From positions 1,292,806 through 1,356,805 of the forward strand of contig JAUICZ010000001.1 in the NCBI GenBank assembly GCA_030429205.1: DNA of 64,000 bases, given 5' to 3'. The position numbers and the translations under genes were made by a program. Positions 41,271-61,953 of this stretch are shown piece by piece (position 1 is the first letter of the stretch; every line of letters starts with the position of its first letter). The notes beneath the pieces are model-generated. The model had not been told where the DNA came from, did no database searches, and saw only the letters and a program-made list of their open reading frames with translations. This DNA comes from Bacteroidia bacterium. Its GTDB lineage: Bacteria; Bacteroidota; Bacteroidia; Chitinophagales; Chitinophagaceae.

Positions 41271-41480
41271 TGTATATGTTATACTCAAAGTTAGCAAATC
41301 TTTAAGTGTTATAATATGATTTTTGTCATGAATGAATGCTTGTCAATGTTGCCCTGTATAGGCAACTTATTATCTAGTATTAAGTGGCTAAAGGTTATGC
41401 TCCAGCTAATTTATTATGAGATTTAGTTGCGACGGAGAACGAAAACCTATACCGCTTGTGATAATAAAGTAGAAAAATAA

Positions 41481-41506
41481 AAAGCCGACTCGAAAGAGTC
41501 GGCTTT
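41481..41506 (-). terminator. intrinsic terminator downstream of the tRNA-Leu fragment
   Basis: AAAGCCGACTC (41481-41491) pairs with GAGTCGGCTTT (41496-41506), loop GAAA; the T run is on the minus strand, as expected behind a leftward tRNA gene. Confidence 0.88.
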
Positions 41507-41513
41507 GTCTCAG

Positions 41514-41570
41514 TGCCCCAGGGGGGAATCGAACCCCCACTCACTTGCGTGAACCAGATTTTGAGTCTGG
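41514..41570 (-). tRNA. 3' fragment of tRNA-Leu(CAA), attL of the island
   Basis: On the minus strand the anticodon arm (CCAGA-CTCAAAA-TCTGG, anticodon CAA) spans 41554-41570, followed by a long variable arm (TCAC/GTGA), the T arm (41522-41538, loop TTCGAAT) and the acceptor 3' strand CTGGGGC (41515-41521) with discriminator A; CCA is not encoded. The anticodon stem's outer end is followed by unrelated AT-rich sequence: no D arm and no 5' acceptor strand GCCCCAG. It is therefore not a working gene but the repeated 3' part left at one end by an integrase acting at this tRNA. The intact gene is expected at the far right end of the element. Confidence 0.85.
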
Positions 41571-41670
41571 CGATTATTGTATTAATATGATTTGATATGT
41601 TCCGAAGTGGTTGATTTTACTGCGTTTTATATTTTATTGAATCAGGTTGTTTCAAGAAAAAACGCAAAAT

Positions 41671-41717
41671 GTTGTACCTATGTTGTACCCGTATTTTTTA
41701 TGGTTTCTGTATCTTTG
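41671..41717 (+). promoter_or_regulatory. integrase promoter with GTTGTACC direct repeats
   Basis: TATCTTTG at 41710-41717 is a perfect TAnnTTTG -7 element 22 bp before the integrase ATG. GTTGTACC occurs twice, at 41671 and 41682, 11 bp apart (one helical turn), and could be bound by the integrase or a regulator. No well-spaced -33 was found. Confidence 0.5.
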
Positions 41718-41739
41718 TATGTAAATAAACCTGAAAACT

Positions 41740-42945
41740 ATGGCTTCGATAAAGGTTGTTCTGCGGAAAAAGAAGAATAAAGACGGCACATTTCCGCTTG
41801 CAATTAGAATAACTAAAGATAGGAAAACATCATTTATCCATTTAGGGCAGCACCTTAAAGAGAAGGATTGGGATGCAAGTAATCAAAAGGTTAAAAAGTC
41901 GCACCCCAACTCAATAAGGCTTAATAATTACATTCTGAAAAAATTGTCAGAAGCAAATGATAAGTCGTTGGAGTTAGAATCAACAAAGAGGGTGGTTACG
42001 GCAAAATCAGTTTCTCAAAAGATTAAACCTAAAAGTGGTGAAACTGTATTCTCTCAAGCGGATTTGTTTCTCGAAAGGCTTAAAGAAGCAGGCAAGTATA
42101 ATAGGTGGAACAATGAGAAATCTAATATCAGGCATCTTAAAGCCTTCCTGAAAAATGATATTGCCTTTCAGGAGTTAACTATTCCGATGCTAAACAGGTA
42201 TAAAACTTTTCTTCTCTCTAATTATCAAATATCCGAGAGAACTGCAATTAATCATCTGGTAACTGTAAGATCAATATTTAGTCAGGCAATTAATGAGGGT
42301 GCTTGCGATGCTAAATATTATCCATTTGGTAAGGGTAAGATTATTATCAAATTTCCAGAGTCTAAGAAGATTGGGTTAACTACAGACGAGGTTAGGAAAA
42401 TAGAAGAAGTTGAGCTGGAAGGGCGAGCGAATCATGCCAGAAACTTATGGCTGATTTCATTCTATTTTGCAGGGATGCGTGTTTCAGATGTTTTGCGTCT
42501 GAATTGGTCAGATTTTCATGATGGCAGACTTTATTATACAATGGGTAAGAATAATAAAACTGATTCATTGAAAGTATCAGAGAAAGCCCAAAAGATATTG
42601 GATATATATGAAAATGAAAGGGTAGCTAATAATGATCTGGTATTCCCCGATATTCGCCATGTTGACCTGTCTGATAAGTTTGAAGCTGAGAAAAAAATAA
42701 AGACCAGAATTAAGGTCGTTGATGTGATCTTGAGGAATGATGTAGCTCTGGCAGCAGGGATAAAAAAGAAACTGACAATGCACATAGCCAGACATACATT
42801 TGGCAATATTTCAGGAGATAGAATACCAATTCAGATGTTACAAAAACTATATAGACATACTGATATTAAAACAACTATTGGCTATCAGGCTAACTTTATT
42901 CACAAAGACACTGATGATGCTTTGGAAAGTGTGATAGGATTTTAA
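41740..42945 (+). CDS. site-specific tyrosine recombinase (integrase 1)
   Basis: A 401-residue tyrosine recombinase of the Bacteroidota conjugative-element type: an N-terminal arm-binding domain (VVLRKKKNKDGTFPLAIRI), a SAM-like core-binding domain (about 105-205) and the catalytic domain with R247 (GMRVSD), H348-x2-R351 (HIARHTF), a histidine in LYRHTDIKTT and the nucleophile Y382 (GYQ). All catalytic residues are present. It lies 170 bp from the tRNA-Leu fragment, reading into the element, so it is the likely agent of its integration. Confidence 0.95.
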   Translation: MASIKVVLRKKKNKDGTFPLAIRITKDRKTSFIHLGQHLKEKDWDASNQKVKKSHPNSIRLNNYILKKLSEANDKSLELESTKRVVTAKSVSQKIKPKSGETVFSQADLFLERLKEAGKYNRWNNEKSNIRHLKAFLKNDIAFQELTIPMLNRYKTFLLSNYQISERTAINHLVTVRSIFSQAINEGACDAKYYPFGKGKIIIKFPESKKIGLTTDEVRKIEEVELEGRANHARNLWLISFYFAGMRVSDVLRLNWSDFHDGRLYYTMGKNNKTDSLKVSEKAQKILDIYENERVANNDLVFPDIRHVDLSDKFEAEKKIKTRIKVVDVILRNDVALAAGIKKKLTMHIARHTFGNISGDRIPIQMLQKLYRHTDIKTTIGYQANFIHKDTDDALESVIGF

Positions 42946-43483: not shown

Positions 43484-46270
43484 TTGGAAAAGATAATCGA
43501 GCTATTTAAAAAGTCTACTGTAAAACTCGTTTCGCAAGATGATAACTCAATAGTAGGTACAGGTTTTTTTATTTCAGACAATCATATACTGACTGCATTA
43601 CATAGTATATCGTTTCCACTCAATATTAATATTGTTTATCCAGGTGACTGGGAAACTCCGTTGAAATGGGCTTTATATAAAGAGTCCGAAAAATTAGACT
43701 ACGCGATTATTCAATTAGATGAAGATATCCCTGAAAAAGGAGTTTGTTCCTTAGGAAATAAATATCAGATTGATGACAAATTATTAATTATTGGCTACTC
43801 CATAGAAAATGAGTACGACGACGTTGTTACAATGAGAATTGAGGGATGGAGTAGAAATACACAGAACAGGAAATTACTTAAGGCAAAAGGAGGAAATATA
43901 TCGCGCGGGATGAGTGGAGCTCCAGTTCTCAACATGGATACTGGTGATGTTATTGGTATGATTTTAGAAACACGTGATGAAGAGAGTGATTTGGGAGGAT
44001 ATTTCGTGTCTATATATGATATACTTTCGGATAATGATGAAATAATAGCTTTCAATAACAATTGGCATACATTAAATCCTGTATGGAATAAGAATAAACC
44101 AAGTAGTAAATTAGGTATCGGCTACTATGATCAGACTTGGACAGACCAACACTTTTATATTTATCGTACTAACAAGTTGTCAATTGATGAAATATTGATT
44201 GCTCCTATTGTAAAAATGATAAAGTTTAGTGATGATGCTTTTGATGAAAATATTTTTGAACTTCCTATAGAGAATTTAATATCAAAATGCATTGATATTT
44301 TGGAGGCTCAATCAGTTCTTGTTATTACTGGTTCGTACGGAGCCGGTAAGTCAATATTTTGTAGGTTTTTTCAAAAAAAACTATTTGAGAATAACAACGA
44401 CACTGTATTTGTAAATTCTTATGAGTTAATTAATGATAAGATACAGTCGCGTGAATTACATAAGCTAGTAGTAGAGCGTTTCAAAGGTAAAAGTAATTCA
44501 TACATATTTCTAGATGCATTTGATGAGATATCCAAGATTACAACAACTGATGAAGAGGAATATGATTTCTTTAATTCCTTAGTGAAAGTATGTAAAAATG
44601 CTGGAGTTAAATTAATTATTAACTATAGAACATTAGACGCGATAGATAAGAAGAGTCAATATGACTATCCTGTCCTTTCGATTCTAGATAACCATAATTT
44701 AACTACTGTTACAATATTAGAGTTTCAGTTTTTCAACAATCGGAAAATAAACGAGTGGATTAATAATTATGCTTTGGCGATGAGCTATAAGGTCAGAAAA
44801 GAGGCGCTTACGATTAATGATGTGAAGAATGCGCATAAGAATCTTATATCAGCATGCAGTAATCCATTGTTTTTATACATGGTTGCGGTTAATTTTTATG
44901 ATGGGGAAGTGAGGCTTGAATCAATTAGAAATATATATGATGTTTATGAAAATTTTGTTAACAGTACGATTAAGGGGAAGTTTTCAGAGGAAAGGAAATC
45001 TGGAAATCAAATTATAAGGGGTATTACAAAAGAATATGAAGCTTTTTTGAAAGAAGTCGCATTTGAGATCGGCAAGAGGCATAATAACTTTGTAATAGAT
45101 GCAAAAAAAGAAATTGATGATGAGTTGTTGCTTGACAATAATGAAAATGTATTTGGTATTAGCGAAGATAGAATAGCAGTTCAAATTAGTTCTATCCTAA
45201 CAAGAATTTCTGACGATCAGGAGTTTTTAAATGGCAAAAGTATTAGCAAAAGGTTTTTAAACTGCTATTTCTTTACACAAAATGGAGACAAGTGGCTATT
45301 TAGAAACAACAATATTATGTTTTTCTTTTTGGCAAAGAAGGTCTTTGCTCAAATTGAGAAAGCAATAAGCATTTTTAGAGACAGAATAAATATAGAGGAC
45401 GCATTTACTCAAATAAAGGAGATTGAGAATATTCCTATTCACCCAATAATGTTAGAAATGCTCGTATATAAGCTGAATTCGCTCGACCAAACGACAAAGG
45501 CTAACCTGGAGTACTTTTTAAAATGTGCAATTGAAGAAGAGTATTTTCTAAGTATATCAGAAGATAAAGACTCGTTCAAAATTGACTTTAAGAAGGTCCA
45601 TCTAGATATATTTTTATGTATCCTATTTGTACAAATAAATAATGAAGGCTACCAAGGAATAAATTTCTTTTTTAAACGATTTACATGGTATCTCAGCGTA
45701 GCAAAACGCATTAATCCCAATATTCATTTTTTAGCTAAGAGATTTTATAAAACAGCTTCAATATCACATGCTGAACTAAGACGTCTAAATATTAAAGGGT
45801 TTAATTTCGACCAAGCTCAGTTAAAGAATGTAAAGTTTATACAAAATAAGATATATAACGTAAGAAAAAACGATACCACATTTAAGGATGTTGAATATCT
45901 GCTTTGTGATTTACAGAATGTTACTATGGATAATATTTCTGGGTCAATTAATTTCTATAATTGTATTATAGATCATATATACATAAACAACCCTAAAAAA
46001 GGTACTAGCTTAAACTTTGACAGGTGCAATATTAAAAGTGTTTTTATTAATTCTGATAAAAGAAGTAACCTGATAATCGCCATAAATAACTGTGGAATTG
46101 GGAATTTACACATAACTAATTGTTATGTAATTGAATTGAGATTGTCTCTAAACATCATAAGTAATATAAAGTACGTAAATTCCAGAATCAACTGTATCGT
46201 TGACAAAAACATTGGTTTTAATAATATTAAAACTGATGTTAAGTCTGAGATTAGTTATCAACACTTATAG
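43484..46270 (+). CDS. trypsin-like peptidase fused to NACHT/STAND NTPase, pentapeptide-like C-terminus
   Basis: A 928-residue protein; the only plausible start is TTG 43484, as the peptidase fold begins at once and the nearby ATG is out of frame. Residues 1-190: trypsin fold with GTGFFISDNHILTALHS (H40), KLDYAIIQL (D72) and SRGMSGAPV (S144), so the triad is complete. Residues 255-560: STAND/NACHT ATPase with Walker A GSYGAGKS (283-290), Walker B IFLDAFDE (341-348) and a sensor-like NYRTLDA. Residues 570-755: helical arm. Residues 756-925: repeats like LRRLNIKGFNFDQAQLKNV, resembling a pentapeptide beta helix, the likely target sensor. Probable anti-phage or conflict effector: sensing leads to ATP-driven assembly and peptidase activation. 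Inferred from architecture. Confidence 0.9.
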   Translation: MEKIIELFKKSTVKLVSQDDNSIVGTGFFISDNHILTALHSISFPLNINIVYPGDWETPLKWALYKESEKLDYAIIQLDEDIPEKGVCSLGNKYQIDDKLLIIGYSIENEYDDVVTMRIEGWSRNTQNRKLLKAKGGNISRGMSGAPVLNMDTGDVIGMILETRDEESDLGGYFVSIYDILSDNDEIIAFNNNWHTLNPVWNKNKPSSKLGIGYYDQTWTDQHFYIYRTNKLSIDEILIAPIVKMIKFSDDAFDENIFELPIENLISKCIDILEAQSVLVITGSYGAGKSIFCRFFQKKLFENNNDTVFVNSYELINDKIQSRELHKLVVERFKGKSNSYIFLDAFDEISKITTTDEEEYDFFNSLVKVCKNAGVKLIINYRTLDAIDKKSQYDYPVLSILDNHNLTTVTILEFQFFNNRKINEWINNYALAMSYKVRKEALTINDVKNAHKNLISACSNPLFLYMVAVNFYDGEVRLESIRNIYDVYENFVNSTIKGKFSEERKSGNQIIRGITKEYEAFLKEVAFEIGKRHNNFVIDAKKEIDDELLLDNNENVFGISEDRIAVQISSILTRISDDQEFLNGKSISKRFLNCYFFTQNGDKWLFRNNNIMFFFLAKKVFAQIEKAISIFRDRINIEDAFTQIKEIENIPIHPIMLEMLVYKLNSLDQTTKANLEYFLKCAIEEEYFLSISEDKDSFKIDFKKVHLDIFLCILFVQINNEGYQGINFFFKRFTWYLSVAKRINPNIHFLAKRFYKTASISHAELRRLNIKGFNFDQAQLKNVKFIQNKIYNVRKNDTTFKDVEYLLCDLQNVTMDNISGSINFYNCIIDHIYINNPKKGTSLNFDRCNIKSVFINSDKRSNLIIAINNCGIGNLHITNCYVIELRLSLNIISNIKYVNSRINCIVDKNIGFNNIKTDVKSEISYQHL

Positions 46271-50183: not shown

Positions 50184-51368
50184 TCACCCTGCATTTTTTT
50201 TAATATAATCAGCCCAATCTTGCATCATGATTTTTCGCTCGTCTAAGAACTGCGCCCTATCATACGCAGCATCAACACTATTTCTATGAGCGTGTGCAAG
50301 TTGACGGTCAACTACTTCGTGCCTATAACCTAATTGTTCTTTTATAGCTGTCATGGCTAATGCTCTAAAACCATGCCCTGTAGCTTTGCCCTTATATCCC
50401 ATTCTATAAAGCGCATAGAGGATAGTATTATTACTCATTGGCTTTCTTGGTGATGTTTGACTTGGGAGCACCCATTCCCATTGATGATTTGAACTATAAA
50501 GCTCTATTAGTATTTCCATTACTCTATCAGATAAAGGCACTATATGAGCTTTACTCATTTTCATTCGTTCTTCAGGGATTATCCAAACCCTATTCTTGAA
50601 GTCTATTTCCTTCCATGTGGCTTCAAGAAGTTCATTTGTTCTCACAAAGGTTAAAAGCATCAATTCAATAGCAAGCTTTGTACGGAGAAATAACCTCGCT
50701 TGATTTGTATGAAGCTTATAAATAAACTCTGGCAACTCTTTTACATCTAGCGCCGCATAATGTTTTGTTCTAGCGGTTTTAAAAGCACCGATAATATCTA
50801 CTGTTACATCTCTATCAGCTCTACCCGTAGCAACAGCATAGCGGAATATTTGACTGCTATACTGCCTTGCACGCTTAGTTGTTTCAAACAAGCCTCTCGC
50901 TTCGATCTTTTTAAGTGCATTCAATAATATTACCGGAGTAATAGATTTAATGGGAAGTCTTCCAAGTGTTGGAAATATATCAGTTTTCATTCTTTTTAGA
51001 ATAGTATTTGCATAACCTTCCGACCAACGTTCTTTCATGTTATCATGCCATTCTAAAGCTATGGCCTCAAAGGTTGTCTTTGACTCACTATAAGCTGTGT
51101 AGCGTTTTTCGATCTTGTTTAATGAAGGGTCTATATCGTTCTCTAAAAGCTTCTTTGATATGCCCCTTTTTTCTCTTGCTTCCTTTAATGATATTTGAGG
51201 GTATGAACCTAGTGCCAAACGCTTCTCTTTCCCTGCATAGCGGTACTTAAAGCGCCACAGTTTGGACCCTGATTTAGTAATTTCTATGTATAACCCGCCT
51301 CCATCATAGATTTTGCGTTGTTTTTCGTTTGTCTTAATGCTTGATAGCAACCTGTCTGTAAGTCGCAT
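50184..51368 (-). CDS. P4-type tyrosine integrase (integrase 2)
   Basis: ATG 51368 is chosen because AGGAGGT (51376-51382) lies 7 bp upstream, a genuine Shine-Dalgarno sequence and unusual in this phylum. The 394-residue protein has the DUF4102 N-terminal domain (DGGGLYIEITKSGSKLWRFK, LALGSYPQISLKEARE), a core-binding domain and a catalytic domain (VRTNELLEATW, GHGFRALAMTAI, LAHAHRNSVDAAYDR). This group usually targets tRNA 3' ends and is commonest in Proteobacteria. AlpA, also with a Shine-Dalgarno, is the neighbour. The gene reads away from a set of repeats that look like its attachment region. Confidence 0.93.
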   Translation of the reverse strand: MRLTDRLLSSIKTNEKQRKIYDGGGLYIEITKSGSKLWRFKYRYAGKEKRLALGSYPQISLKEAREKRGISKKLLENDIDPSLNKIEKRYTAYSESKTTFEAIALEWHDNMKERWSEGYANTILKRMKTDIFPTLGRLPIKSITPVILLNALKKIEARGLFETTKRARQYSSQIFRYAVATGRADRDVTVDIIGAFKTARTKHYAALDVKELPEFIYKLHTNQARLFLRTKLAIELMLLTFVRTNELLEATWKEIDFKNRVWIIPEERMKMSKAHIVPLSDRVMEILIELYSSNHQWEWVLPSQTSPRKPMSNNTILYALYRMGYKGKATGHGFRALAMTAIKEQLGYRHEVVDRQLAHAHRNSVDAAYDRAQFLDERKIMMQDWADYIKKNAG

Positions 51369-51390
51369 ATTCTCTACCTCCTGAGCTGTC

Positions 51391-51652
51391 TTGGGGGCAT
51401 GCTGGTTTTTTGCTAAAAATATGCCCCCAATCATGCCCCCAAATATCTTAGAATAGGTGGGACTCACACGGAAGACATGAAACGACAAAACGCCTGAAGG
51501 TGGCTGTTTGTCTAGTGTTATGGGAATGAATGAGACTTGTTGAAACCAGTTCCTGGCTCCGCGGGAGTGGTACACGTTTCCGCTTTAAGCCTCTGATTTA
51601 GAACAATACTGTCAATCACTTTTTTATGATATGCCCCCAAATGTGCCCCCAC
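51391..51652. other. five TGGGGGCAT arm-type repeats around a likely att region
   Basis: TTGGGGGCAT occurs at 51391 on the plus strand, and as ATGCCCCCAA at 51421, 51433 and 51631, with a variant GTGCCCCCAC at 51643. Within each close pair the spacing is 12 bp. Between them, 51480-51600, lie compact hairpins (GACAAA/TTTGTC, CTCC/GGAG, CCAG/CTGG). Repeats of this kind upstream of P4-type integrase genes are taken as integrase arm sites. No gene lies in 51369-51792. Confidence 0.6.
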
Positions 51653-56431: not shown

Positions 56432-57967
56432 CTAATTATTTTCGTCTTCAAAGTTTTGTTCAAAGATCACTTTCATGTGGTTTGTTCCTGTTGACCATCT
56501 TTTCCCTGTTGAAAAAACGATCCCTTCCACATCAAAGTTATTTTGCAGCCCGCCACTTTTAAAAAGCGTAAACTCCATTGGTTGAACTTGCGGCAAATAT
56601 GTTGTTTGCATGCTTTTATTGGATTGTATGTTCATTGAGAATAATGAGCGACTGGAACCTCTTGTTGAGTTGAATCCGATTGTACTACCTATTAAGTTGC
56701 TTGCATAATCATTTGTGACGGCATCTGAATTAGCATGAAATATTTTTGTAGCTAAATTTCCCATGAAACTATGGACTTGAGAATCAGTATTAGATTTTGC
56801 CCCCATCGCAGCCATATAGTTTGACAGATTTTGCGATAAAAACACAGTTGCAGCCCTTGAGCTTCTTGCTGTTGTAAGAAAAATCTGATCATATGGATTT
56901 AAGAAATACTGTGCTTCATCAGCCCATATAAAAACAGGCGTAGGGTGTTCATCTGTTTTTCTACGCTCAACAGCTTGTTGGAAAATGAGTTTGAAGATAC
57001 TTTGTGCCATTATCCCTGCCTCAAGGTGTTCTTTAACTGGAAAATCTAAAAGGATGATCTTATTATCGGTAAAAGCTTCTTCAGGTTTTAAAGTTGTTTT
57101 ACCTGAAAAGTGCTTTTCAAGTAACCCTGATAAAAAAGGCTCTGCTAAACCCATAAATGATTCTACAATGGTTGTATGAGTTTGACCAGTGATACCTGGT
57201 AATGATTCTGTAAAGTACTTATATATCGAATCATAAGTAGTAAATAAACTAGAGCCTTGTTCTTCCTCTTCAATATTTACATAAGCCAGAGCAAGGCATT
57301 TCAGAAAGTAATTTTTGGATAGTAGCTCGTCTTCAAAATTTTGCTGATAAACTAATCTTATTGCATTTCTCATATTTTGTTCTGAAAACGGCTTGCTTTC
57401 TGTTGGACTACTTGTAACGATAGCAATCATGTTTTTATAGGTAAGCTCTTCATTTGCTATAATAATTAGTTCAATCGTTTTGTTTAAAAGCCGTTTTAGT
57501 GCTGTGTCCCAGAATCTGTTATCGCTTCCTCCTTCAGAAGATTCATTAGTAATGCGATTCCCCATTTTATACAGATTCATAAAGATGTTCGTGATATTGA
57601 AAACCTCTTTAGCTCCCTCTCCTTCTCTTGTCATTTCATAGTCCAAGGGGTTGAAGATTATAGTTTTCCCCTCATGTTTCCCAGAATCATGGGTAGCATC
57701 CTTGCTGAAGTGTATTATATCATGTTCTCTATTTGTCTTTTTACAGTAATCCCACCATAAGTCTGCTTCGTCTGTTTTTGCACAAAGAACTAATCCGCCC
57801 CAACCTTTTTTAAGAAATTGTAGTGCAATAGCTTTGCCTGAACCGCTTGTTTTACCACTGCCTGTGCCACCTAATATTGATGTTCCTTTTATAGCATCAT
57901 CTACTGTCCAGTAATCTTGAGGGTTTGAGGAGAATTTTAATAGGACTTCTTGTCTCCAGTCTTCCAT
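56432..57967 (-). CDS. TraG/VirD4-like conjugative coupling protein
   Basis: A 511-residue ATPase with Walker A GGTGSGKTSGSGK at residues 33-45 and a Walker B-like PVFIWADEAQYFL at about 343-355, then a glutamine-rich sensor region SQNLSNYMAAMGAKSN. The first 30 residues lack the usual N-terminal membrane helices, so it may rely on the adjacent small membrane proteins. VirD4-type proteins dock the relaxase-DNA complex to a mating pore. No mating-pore ATPase is visible in the window. Confidence 0.88.
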   Translation of the reverse strand: MEDWRQEVLLKFSSNPQDYWTVDDAIKGTSILGGTGSGKTSGSGKAIALQFLKKGWGGLVLCAKTDEADLWWDYCKKTNREHDIIHFSKDATHDSGKHEGKTIIFNPLDYEMTREGEGAKEVFNITNIFMNLYKMGNRITNESSEGGSDNRFWDTALKRLLNKTIELIIIANEELTYKNMIAIVTSSPTESKPFSEQNMRNAIRLVYQQNFEDELLSKNYFLKCLALAYVNIEEEEQGSSLFTTYDSIYKYFTESLPGITGQTHTTIVESFMGLAEPFLSGLLEKHFSGKTTLKPEEAFTDNKIILLDFPVKEHLEAGIMAQSIFKLIFQQAVERRKTDEHPTPVFIWADEAQYFLNPYDQIFLTTARSSRAATVFLSQNLSNYMAAMGAKSNTDSQVHSFMGNLATKIFHANSDAVTNDYASNLIGSTIGFNSTRGSSRSLFSMNIQSNKSMQTTYLPQVQPMEFTLFKSGGLQNNFDVEGIVFSTGKRWSTGTNHMKVIFEQNFEDENN

Positions 57968-58937: not shown

Positions 58938-59071
58938 CCTTAAAGATGCGTTAAGGGGAGATGTCTGATGTATTTCGTTTTACGAATACATCGAATATTA
59001 TTTTACTTTCTGTATTATAAAAATACAGTTCTCAATATTTCATATTGAACCATGTTAGACCGTGTTGAACC
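58938..59071. other. candidate oriT: three hairpins and 10-bp iterons
   Basis: Hairpin 1 is CCTTAA/TTAAGG (58938-58956). Hairpin 2 is GATGTATT plus CG with its partner (58967-58992) with one bulge. Hairpin 3 is CTGTATT/AATACAG (59010-59028). Then TTGAACC, TTAGACC and TTGAACC start at 59045, 59055 and 59065, exactly 10 bp apart on the helix face. All lie 98 bp before the MobF relaxase start. The nic site is not identified. Confidence 0.55.
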
Positions 59072-59169
59072 AATATTTTTTTGCTCGGAAAAAAGCCGCT
59101 AATATGCTCTTCCGGCGATGTTTCGGTGCGCCTATAACTGAGGCAAGAAGTGTAAATAAAATTGGTTTT

Positions 59170-61953
59170 ATGTTGAGGATTAATGCTTGTGTTTCGGCGG
59201 AGGGAGCTAAGAGATATTATTCAGAATCTCATTATGTAGAAGGTAAGAATACACGCCTAGATTACTATAAAGAGAAAAGTGAATTTATGGGTCTGTGGGG
59301 AGGTAAAGCAGCTCACAAAATGGGCTTGAGTGATGGCATCCGAAAAGCTGATTTTGATGCTTTATGTGACAATAAACGACCTGATAAGGGTGAAACCTTA
59401 ACGGGGCGTACCAATGACAATAGACGCGTAGGATATGACTTCACCTTTAATGCAAGCAAGTCTGTCAGTATTGCACATGCTTTTGGAAAAGAGGAAGAAA
59501 AGCGAGAGATATTAGATGCGTTTCAAAAATCTGTCAGAAGTACAATGCTAGAGGTAGAAAAGAATATGCTGGCAAGGGTACGGAAGAAGAATGACAATTA
59601 TGATAGGGAAACAGGCAATATAGCTTATGGAGAATTTACACATTATACTACCAGACCTGTAAAGGGGATTCCTTACCCTCATTTGCACATTCATTGTTTT
59701 GTCTTTAATGGAACTTATGATGAAAAAGATAAAAAATGGAAGGCGGGGCAATTTGGACAGATCAAGAAAGATGCTTCATATTATCAGGCTTATTTCCATT
59801 CTAAATTAGCCAAGAATTTACAAGATGTTGGATATGCAGTAAGGAGGACCAAAGATGGTGTTGAGATGGAGGGTGTAAATAAAGGTTTGATCGATAAGTT
59901 TTCAAAAAGGACTAAAGAGATAAATGAACATGCTTTAAAACATGGGATTATAGACGCAAAAAGTAAAGCCAATATAGGTTCGAAAACCAGAGCTAGTAAA
60001 AAAGGAGCTGTAAGTGAAAGGGAGCAGCTTATTGAGTGGAAAAAGAGATTTTCGATTCAGGAGATAGAACAGGTTAGAAATTTGAAGAAGGAAAATCTAT
60101 CACCTGAAAACAGAGAAAATAAAAAATATGCAAAGCAGGCGGTAGAAGATTCTATTAACCACCATTTAGAGAGAAAATCTGTTGTATCTGATAAGGAAAT
60201 ATTAGCCTTTGCACTAAAAAGATCAATTGGGGAATCGGAACCAGAAAATGTAATAGCTGCTTTTAAAGAGAGGGCAGATGTTATTTCTGTAAAAGAGGGT
60301 AATCAAATATTGATTACTACTAAGGAAGCGTTAAGTGAAGAAAAGAAGCTGATCACTCATGCCAATTCTTATAGGGGTAAATTCAAACCTTTAAATAAAG
60401 ATTACATATTCCAAAATGAAGTTTTGAATAAAGAGCAAAAGAGAGCAATTCAACATGCACTTAGCACAAAAGACGGTTTGATAATTATTTCTGGTAAAGC
60501 CGGAACGGGGAAAACTACTTTAATGAAGGAGGTGAAAGCCGGTATCCAACTAAGCGGCAAGAAAATATTTTCTTTTGCCCCTTCCGCTGATGCAAGCCGT
60601 AATGTACAACGAAGTGAGGGTTTTGCCGATGCTGATACTGTTGCTTCATTGATCGGGAATAAAGACAAGCATTCGCAACTTAAAAACCAAGTATTATGGA
60701 TAGATGAAGCAGGACAGCTTTCTAATAAGGATATGAATAAATTGTTTGAAATAGCAAAGGAGCAAAACGCAAGAATAATGCTTTCAGGTGATATTAGGCA
60801 GCATAATAGTGTGAACAGGGGAGATGCGTTAAGAGTAATTCAAAAATATTCTGCTGTGAAGGCTATTACAGTTAATAAGATACAAAGACAGAAAAACAAG
60901 GAATATAGAGGTGCCGTGAAGCTTCTTTCAAACGGCAATGTTGAAAAGGGGCTGAACAAACTAGATCAGATTGGTTCTGTTCATGAGATAGAGAGGAATA
61001 ATGAAAGAGTTAAGGCTATCGCAAATGATTATATGGAATCTGCATATAAAGGGAAAATCAGCAAAAATGTTTTGGTTGTAGCACCCACTCATAAAGAGGG
61101 TGAACGAATAACAAAGCAGATAAGGTACCAGCTTAAAAATGAAGGGAGACTTGCGAGGGAAGATAGAGAGTTCAAAATTTTAAAGAAGGTGCAATTAACT
61201 GAAGTGGAGAAGAAAGATATTGATAACTACAAAGTTGGTCAGGTTCTCTCGTTTCATAAAAACATGAAGGGTGTGAGGGCTGGTTCACATCTTGCAATTA
61301 AAGAAATTCATAACAATTCAATAATAGCTAATGACAGACAGGGAAATCATTCAATTATTTCTCTGGATAATTCTGATAGGTTTAGTGTCTATGAGAAAGT
61401 TAAAATATATCTGACAGAGAAAGATAAAGTACGAATTACAGGCAACAGTAAGTCATTAGAAGGTAAAAGGCTTTATAATGGCTCTACTTATGAAGTTAAA
61501 GGGTTTGATGAAGCTGGAAATATAAAATTGTCTAACGGTTCTGTTATCTCAAAGAATTACGGGCATTTTAATCAGGGTTATGTTGTTACGTCTCATAGTT
61601 CACAGGGCAAAACTGCTGATAAGGTAATTATATCGCAAAGCTCTAACAGCATTAAAGCCTCTTCAATGGAACAGTTTTACGTTTCTGTCTCCAGAGGGCG
61701 CAATGCAGTTTCAATATATACTGATAATAAGCAGGATTTGCTAAGAGGAATTAAGCAGACGACTCATAAGCTTTCAGCAATGGAACTTACGGGTAAGACA
61801 AGTATGTTTAGCATGGTTCTAAAGAATAATAGATCAAAGATGCTTAAAGATTTAAAACAGAAAGTAGGATTGAGGATTGAGAATGCAAAGGCAAAAATCA
61901 AAGCAAATGAACTTCCGAGAAAGAATATTACAAGGGCGGTCAGAACTAGATAA
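59170..61953 (+). CDS. MobF-family relaxase/helicase
   Basis: ATG 59170 is chosen since MobF relaxases begin almost at once with the catalytic domain (LRINACVSAEGAKRYYSES, tyrosines 16 and 17). Length 927 residues. The metal-binding histidines are HLHIH at 171-175 with RRVGYDFTFNASKSVS before it. The C-terminal half is a RecD-type helicase with Walker A SGKAGTGKTTL (near 442), LWIDEAGQL, and GYVVTSHSSQGKTADKV. The protein nicks at oriT, binds the 5' end and unwinds the strand. The next gene overlaps its last 47 bp. Confidence 0.93.
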   Translation: MLRINACVSAEGAKRYYSESHYVEGKNTRLDYYKEKSEFMGLWGGKAAHKMGLSDGIRKADFDALCDNKRPDKGETLTGRTNDNRRVGYDFTFNASKSVSIAHAFGKEEEKREILDAFQKSVRSTMLEVEKNMLARVRKKNDNYDRETGNIAYGEFTHYTTRPVKGIPYPHLHIHCFVFNGTYDEKDKKWKAGQFGQIKKDASYYQAYFHSKLAKNLQDVGYAVRRTKDGVEMEGVNKGLIDKFSKRTKEINEHALKHGIIDAKSKANIGSKTRASKKGAVSEREQLIEWKKRFSIQEIEQVRNLKKENLSPENRENKKYAKQAVEDSINHHLERKSVVSDKEILAFALKRSIGESEPENVIAAFKERADVISVKEGNQILITTKEALSEEKKLITHANSYRGKFKPLNKDYIFQNEVLNKEQKRAIQHALSTKDGLIIISGKAGTGKTTLMKEVKAGIQLSGKKIFSFAPSADASRNVQRSEGFADADTVASLIGNKDKHSQLKNQVLWIDEAGQLSNKDMNKLFEIAKEQNARIMLSGDIRQHNSVNRGDALRVIQKYSAVKAITVNKIQRQKNKEYRGAVKLLSNGNVEKGLNKLDQIGSVHEIERNNERVKAIANDYMESAYKGKISKNVLVVAPTHKEGERITKQIRYQLKNEGRLAREDREFKILKKVQLTEVEKKDIDNYKVGQVLSFHKNMKGVRAGSHLAIKEIHNNSIIANDRQGNHSIISLDNSDRFSVYEKVKIYLTEKDKVRITGNSKSLEGKRLYNGSTYEVKGFDEAGNIKLSNGSVISKNYGHFNQGYVVTSHSSQGKTADKVIISQSSNSIKASSMEQFYVSVSRGRNAVSIYTDNKQDLLRGIKQTTHKLSAMELTGKTSMFSMVLKNNRSKMLKDLKQKVGLRIENAKAKIKANELPRKNITRAVRTR

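Follow-up and report, generated by a model that had tools for sequence, protein, structure and literature searches.

The tRNA-Leu(CAA) fragment described here appears to be the outer half of the attachment site of an integrative element (A), the first of three elements (A, B and C) stacked in one tRNA-Leu(CAA) gene. Judging from the sequence, we give this explanation as a whole a probability of about 0.92. The window, i.e. the whole 64-kb stretch of DNA that was analyzed, corresponds to C4:1292806-1356805 on one of the 12 contigs of a 3.64-Mb genome.

A tRNA-Leu(CAA) fragment and its copies

The first-pass annotation had reported a leftward 57-bp 3′ part of tRNA-Leu(CAA) that gives way to foreign DNA, with an integrase shortly after it. 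All of this agreed with our inspection: position 41514 is the discriminator A (minus strand), TCTGG at 41566-41570 closes the anticodon stem and completes the 57 bp, and a rightward integrase ORF starts at 41740, 174 bp past the loop. TCTGG fits both the tRNA and the element and could stem from either. The features of this end are as follows.

41481-41506, minus strand: terminator hairpin directly 3′ of the tRNA end (3 terminator-like sites in the stretch versus 0.2 expected)
41514-41570, minus strand: displaced 3′ part of tRNA-Leu(CAA) at the outer left end of A, spanning the discriminator base through the anticodon stem
41559-41565, letters on the plus strand: TTTTGAG, the anticodon loop (7 bp), common to all four tRNA copies and the putative crossover region
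41559-64000, no strand: part of element A within the window; its right end, at window-equivalent 68066 (C4:1360871), lies outside
41670-41689, plus strand: tandem pair TGTTGTACC-TA-TGTTGTACC, putative arm-type integrase binding sites
41740-42945, plus strand: tyrosine integrase of A, 401 aa (Pfam Arm-DNA-bind_5, Phage_int_SAM_5 and Phage_integrase)

No complete tRNA was detected in the 64-kb window by ARAGORN. A BLAST search of 41450-41760 against the genome itself returned C4:1360787-1360877 (E-value 1e-28), 1375522-1375609 (7e-30) and 1431672-1431732 (4e-21). The first two contain further 3′ halves of tRNA-Leu(CAA) (C4:1360825-1360877 and 1375555-1375609), and the third belongs to a complete gene.

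C4:1431673-1431757 (window-equivalent 138868-138952), minus strand: complete tRNA-Leu(CAA), the sole intact tRNA-Leu(CAA) found in the genome

Since one matching copy is a complete tRNA, the fragment is not a chance similarity. An intact gene to the right, beyond 64 kb, had also been predicted; it is indeed present on the same contig, 97 kb away, and the suggested downstream search for a second copy thus yielded three more 3′ halves, one of them in a complete tRNA. Neither outcome named as fatal to the prediction, a lack of any second copy or an intact tRNA left of 41.5 kb, was observed; leftward, the search turned up no intact copy. One point of the prediction needs correcting: the right end of A (68.07 kb window-equivalent) carries only a further 3′ fragment, and it is the third element whose right end holds the intact gene.

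All four 3′ halves share one orientation, and a 5′ half is joined to the rightmost alone. Their TTTTGAG loops start at C4:1334364, 1360871, 1375601 and 1431719, giving loop-to-loop lengths of 26,507 bp (A), 14,730 bp (B) and 56,118 bp (C). The copies diverge straight after the loop or inside stem bases that fit either side, and we infer that strand exchange took place at the 7-bp anticodon loop.

Repeats and terminators at the element ends

Pairs of TTGTACC spaced 11 bp apart occurred three times in 144 kb, at the left and right ends of A and the right end of B, and no exact pair was seen in 16,000 shuffled stretches. Correspondingly, the TGTTGTACC pair was present at both ends of A and only at the right end of B, for which no left-end repeat pair was found in the 144 kb examined. 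A different pair, AGTGCA, was detected twice in the same 144 kb, at the left and right ends of C. Finally, all four tRNA 3′ halves were followed, on their own strand, by a terminator-like hairpin, with 0.2-0.3 such sites expected per stretch.

Gene content of the three elements

The integrase of A contains arm-binding, core-binding and catalytic domains (Pfam), and its predicted catalytic R, HxxR, H and Y residues were located by eye after its catalytic domain had been aligned with that of XerA (5hxy). Further genes of A are listed here.

43484-46270, plus strand: cargo protein of A, 928 aa (listed with a TTG start), with a trypsin-like and a STAND-type NTPase region
50184-51575, minus strand: second integrase of a different type (Arm-DNA-bind_3, Phage_int_M), inside A
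56432-57967, minus strand: protein with TraG/TraD C-terminal domain, candidate coupling protein (E-value 4e-6, weak)
59062-61953, plus strand: TrwC-type relaxase with helicase domain, 963 aa (domain match)

The TrwC relaxase and the weak TraG/TraD match were the only conjugation genes among the 11 of 29 listed ORFs of A that were scanned, and A is probably an integrative, mobilizable element. The 928-aa protein also carries pentapeptide repeats and could be a defence protein; its match in PADLOC was limited to the protease region. Pairs of TGCCCCC lie by the second integrase, at 51422 and 51632. We considered a nested element around this gene and rejected it: repeats of at least 16 nt gave no convincing flanking pair, and the TGCCCCC pairs lie only near the gene.

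Element B has a loop junction at both ends and an A-type right end, without the left repeat pair. Its 11 listed ORFs, all of which were scanned, include sensor kinases, response regulators, methyltransferases and an outer-membrane protein, and none of them is an integrase or transfer gene. Elements with attachment sites at both ends that lack integrase and transfer genes are known as cis-mobilizable. A search of 98 genomes for relatives of the left end of B returned none except two weak, short matches. B is probably a remnant that is mobile only with help.

Element C, for which 28 ORFs were scanned, has its own integrase near the left end. A close relative of this integrase (68%) likewise follows a Leu(CAA) fragment with the same type of repeat. 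Metal-resistance genes of C encode RND pumps, P-type pumps and a MerT-like protein, and a cytosine methylase adjoins a weak type II restriction match.

That B has no integrase among its listed ORFs, and that the outermost sites share the same loop at a distance of 97 kb, would also fit a single composite island in which A, B and C move as a unit and the inner fragments are relics. We regard this as quite improbable, as A and C each possess their own integrase and their own matched end repeats, which is what separate elements should have. Joint excision of all three may nevertheless occur as a side reaction.

Relatives of the A integrase and their targets

Scanning named genomes with the A integrase gave 263 relatives, of which we analyzed the best 80. 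A 9-mer pair with 11-bp spacing and at most one mismatch preceded the integrase in 79 of these 80 (the one miss, L036, is cut at a contig end), and the first copy was TGTTGTACC in 68 of the 79. In 74 of the best 80 there was a tRNA fragment reaching from the 3′ end to the anticodon loop, and the distance from loop to pair was 114-118 bp in 71 of the 74 and 125-129 bp in the other three (L063, L071 and L073). Assigned by anticodon-loop pattern, the targets in these 74 were Met (39), Leu(CAA) (14), Leu(TAG) (13), Leu(TAA) (7) and Phe (1); the six unassigned loci are misses of the pattern or the feature, including L036. In L030, L035 and L090, ARAGORN also called a complete tRNA immediately ahead of the integrase. 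By eye, these calls were judged spurious, their 5′ part being element DNA, and for L030 and L035 a plausible complete tRNA gene exists elsewhere in the genome.

This recurrence bears on whether the fragments at our locus stem from duplication or from chance likeness among Leu tRNA genes instead of site-specific integration. Leu tRNAs are indeed alike, and weak tRNA-Leu(TAA) matches did appear in our searches. Even so, we consider this origin extremely improbable: all copies stop at the same loop, integrases and end repeats occupy fixed places, and the layout recurs in 74 of the best 80 relatives.

When mapped onto a tree of the A integrase and 79 of its relatives (80 integrases in all; L073 was left out), the six labels, i.e. 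five targets and 'none', required at least 14 changes, compared with 38.5 in shuffles. The target is therefore inherited, but has been switched repeatedly.

Two further integrases of the same family are encoded in the same genome, each behind a tRNA fragment and with a different repeat pair: L113 (C4:1061529-1062749) behind tRNA-Phe and L114 (C4:1113628-1114830) behind tRNA-Met. Outside the Met fragment of L114 lies the TTGTACC pair of another element, suggesting a further stack. Very small elements of this family were also seen between tRNA-Leu(TAA) copies, namely ∼4.1 kb at L025 (3807-7985) and ∼4.7 kb at L082 (3785-8525), the latter with two genes that presumably resemble a nucleotidyltransferase toxin pair.

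Position of the intact tRNA

To locate the intact gene relative to the integrase, the genomes of 24 loci, as well as the genus relative G001, were searched for a second copy. Eight loci were left out of the count, four since their targets differ from the pattern used (L064, L076, L087 and L091) and four because their second copy lay on a different contig or at the edge of one (L018, L021, L022 and L035). In all 16 remaining relatives, a complete tRNA was present at the integrase-distal end on the same contig, and 15 of the 16 had a repeat pair at this right end (L158 had none). In elements with variant repeats (L023, L024, L025, L028 and L030), the right pair was the same variant or differed by one base. 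The end repeats thus co-vary over 4-71 kb, as would be expected for candidate arm sites of one integrase.

In Aquimarina mytili (G070, C1:456581-552399), four 3′ fragments of tRNA-Met precede an intact copy of the gene, all in one orientation over 96 kb, a longer stack than ours. G001 was rejected as an empty site: C-type repeats are present at its tRNA-Leu(CAA), and the genes of our left flank lie elsewhere in that genome. No second tRNA fragment was found in G001.

Proposed mechanism and history of the tRNA gene

We propose that each integrase would cut at the 7-bp anticodon loop, with the stem arms serving as core sites. The left, integrase-side end of the element would be joined to the resident 3′ half, and its right end, consisting of arm pair, terminator and tRNA 3′ half, to the host 5′ half. 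The host promoter and 5′ half would stay in place and receive a new 3′ half and terminator. The restored gene would again be a target, and elements could therefore stack.

According to this recombination scheme, the leftmost 3′ half would descend from the host itself and that of the present tRNA would have been brought in by C, whatever the order of arrival. The two differ by three bases in the acceptor 3′ strand. In the predicted folds, all seven acceptor positions are paired in the presumed earlier tRNA and position 5 is unpaired in the present one, the rest of the fold not being a standard cloverleaf.

The leftmost fragment could instead be the right end of an older, since deleted element. 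Such a past would fit the likeness of its terminator to those of A and B, and also the fact that the genomes examined yielded no empty site. Against this stand the absence of an arm pair outside the fragment, the full pairing of its 3′ strand with the host 5′ half and the match of both acceptor strands to the host tRNA-Leu(TAA). We consider a deleted element unlikely, and the leftmost 3′ half is probably the host's original. In Taibaiella koreensis (G065, C24:24993-46179), the displaced Leu(CAA) fragment and the intact tRNA likewise do not agree in their 3′ halves, a possible exchange of half a gene.

Taken further, and with even odds in our estimate, these loci would reflect a Bacteroidota-wide integrase lineage of fixed end anatomy, with arm pair, terminator and tRNA 3′ half at the integrase-distal end and a matching arm pair at the integrase end. 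This lineage would have switched repeatedly between tRNAs for Leu, Met and Phe, using the anticodon loop each time. Its arrivals would each replace the host 3′ half and terminator, because the gene is restored from the far end, and would in this way build stacks and make tRNAs chimeric; at our locus, the result would be a mismatch in the acceptor stem of the sole intact tRNA-Leu(CAA) found. The locus offers a concrete example of mobile DNA that appears to have altered the acceptor stem of a host tRNA.

Comparison with known systems

Usually, the integrase lies beside the intact tRNA. This is also the arrangement at leuX, where intB adjoins the intact gene. At our locus, by contrast, it is the displaced fragment that neighbors the integrase, and the intact gene sits at the opposite end. 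The leuX/intB locus of E. coli K-12 (NC_000913) otherwise shares with ours a tRNA-Leu(CAA) and an adjacent integrase gene, which is a pseudogene in E. coli.

It is well established that tRNA genes harbor islands with 3′ fragments and a crossover at the anticodon loop (PMC4383910, PMC8371274). In the Islander collection, 3′ fragments are given for 3760 of 3919 islands and an anticodon-centred site for 2083, and tandems of three or more number only four (PMC4383910). Like these islands, our locus has a restored tRNA at one end, a displaced 3′ fragment at the other and, in A and C, an integrase inside (PMC4383910). The tRNA gene and the end fragments are in the correct configuration and in the same orientation, and the lengths (26.5, 14.7 and 56.1 kb) fall within the 2-200 kb that Islander allows. 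Integrases are found in A and in C; B, with none among its 11 listed ORFs, would fail the Islander integrase filter, and the stack of three also sets the locus apart from most Islander entries (PMC4383910).

Within the Bacteroidota, the IntCTnDOT subgroup including NBU1 has the same arm-binding, core-binding and catalytic domains, a likeness at the level of domains (PMC8138268). NBU1 likewise targets a Leu tRNA, going by the title of a paper in the reference list of PMC8138268, but reportedly inserts at the 3′ end of its target, in contrast to the putative crossover at the anticodon loop here (PMC8138268). The 10K island of Riemerella also occupies a tRNA gene, and its integration and excision were shown experimentally, but its 53-bp site is at Arg-tRNA with the integrase described as adjoining that tRNA (PMC6764341). 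Flavobacteriia elements in tRNA-Met and tRNA-Leu have been described (PMC12561888, PMC8694125). Among them, ICECleSHZ29-like ICEs reside in tRNA-Met-CAT and their circular form was detected; they target a tRNA as here, though with a 17-bp repeat at the 3′ end of the gene instead of the anticodon loop (PMC12561888). In our searches of open-licence literature, whose coverage was thin, neither this end anatomy nor integrase-distal tRNA restoration was found described.

The kind of element is thus known, and what is unusually clear here is its stereotyped layout, with half of a host tRNA gene apparently replaced by the latest arrival. The locus provides base-level ends for three stacked elements and two integrase types with candidate arm sites. 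Moreover, ∼80 integrases with varying candidate arm repeats and tRNA targets make arm recognition and target switching testable.
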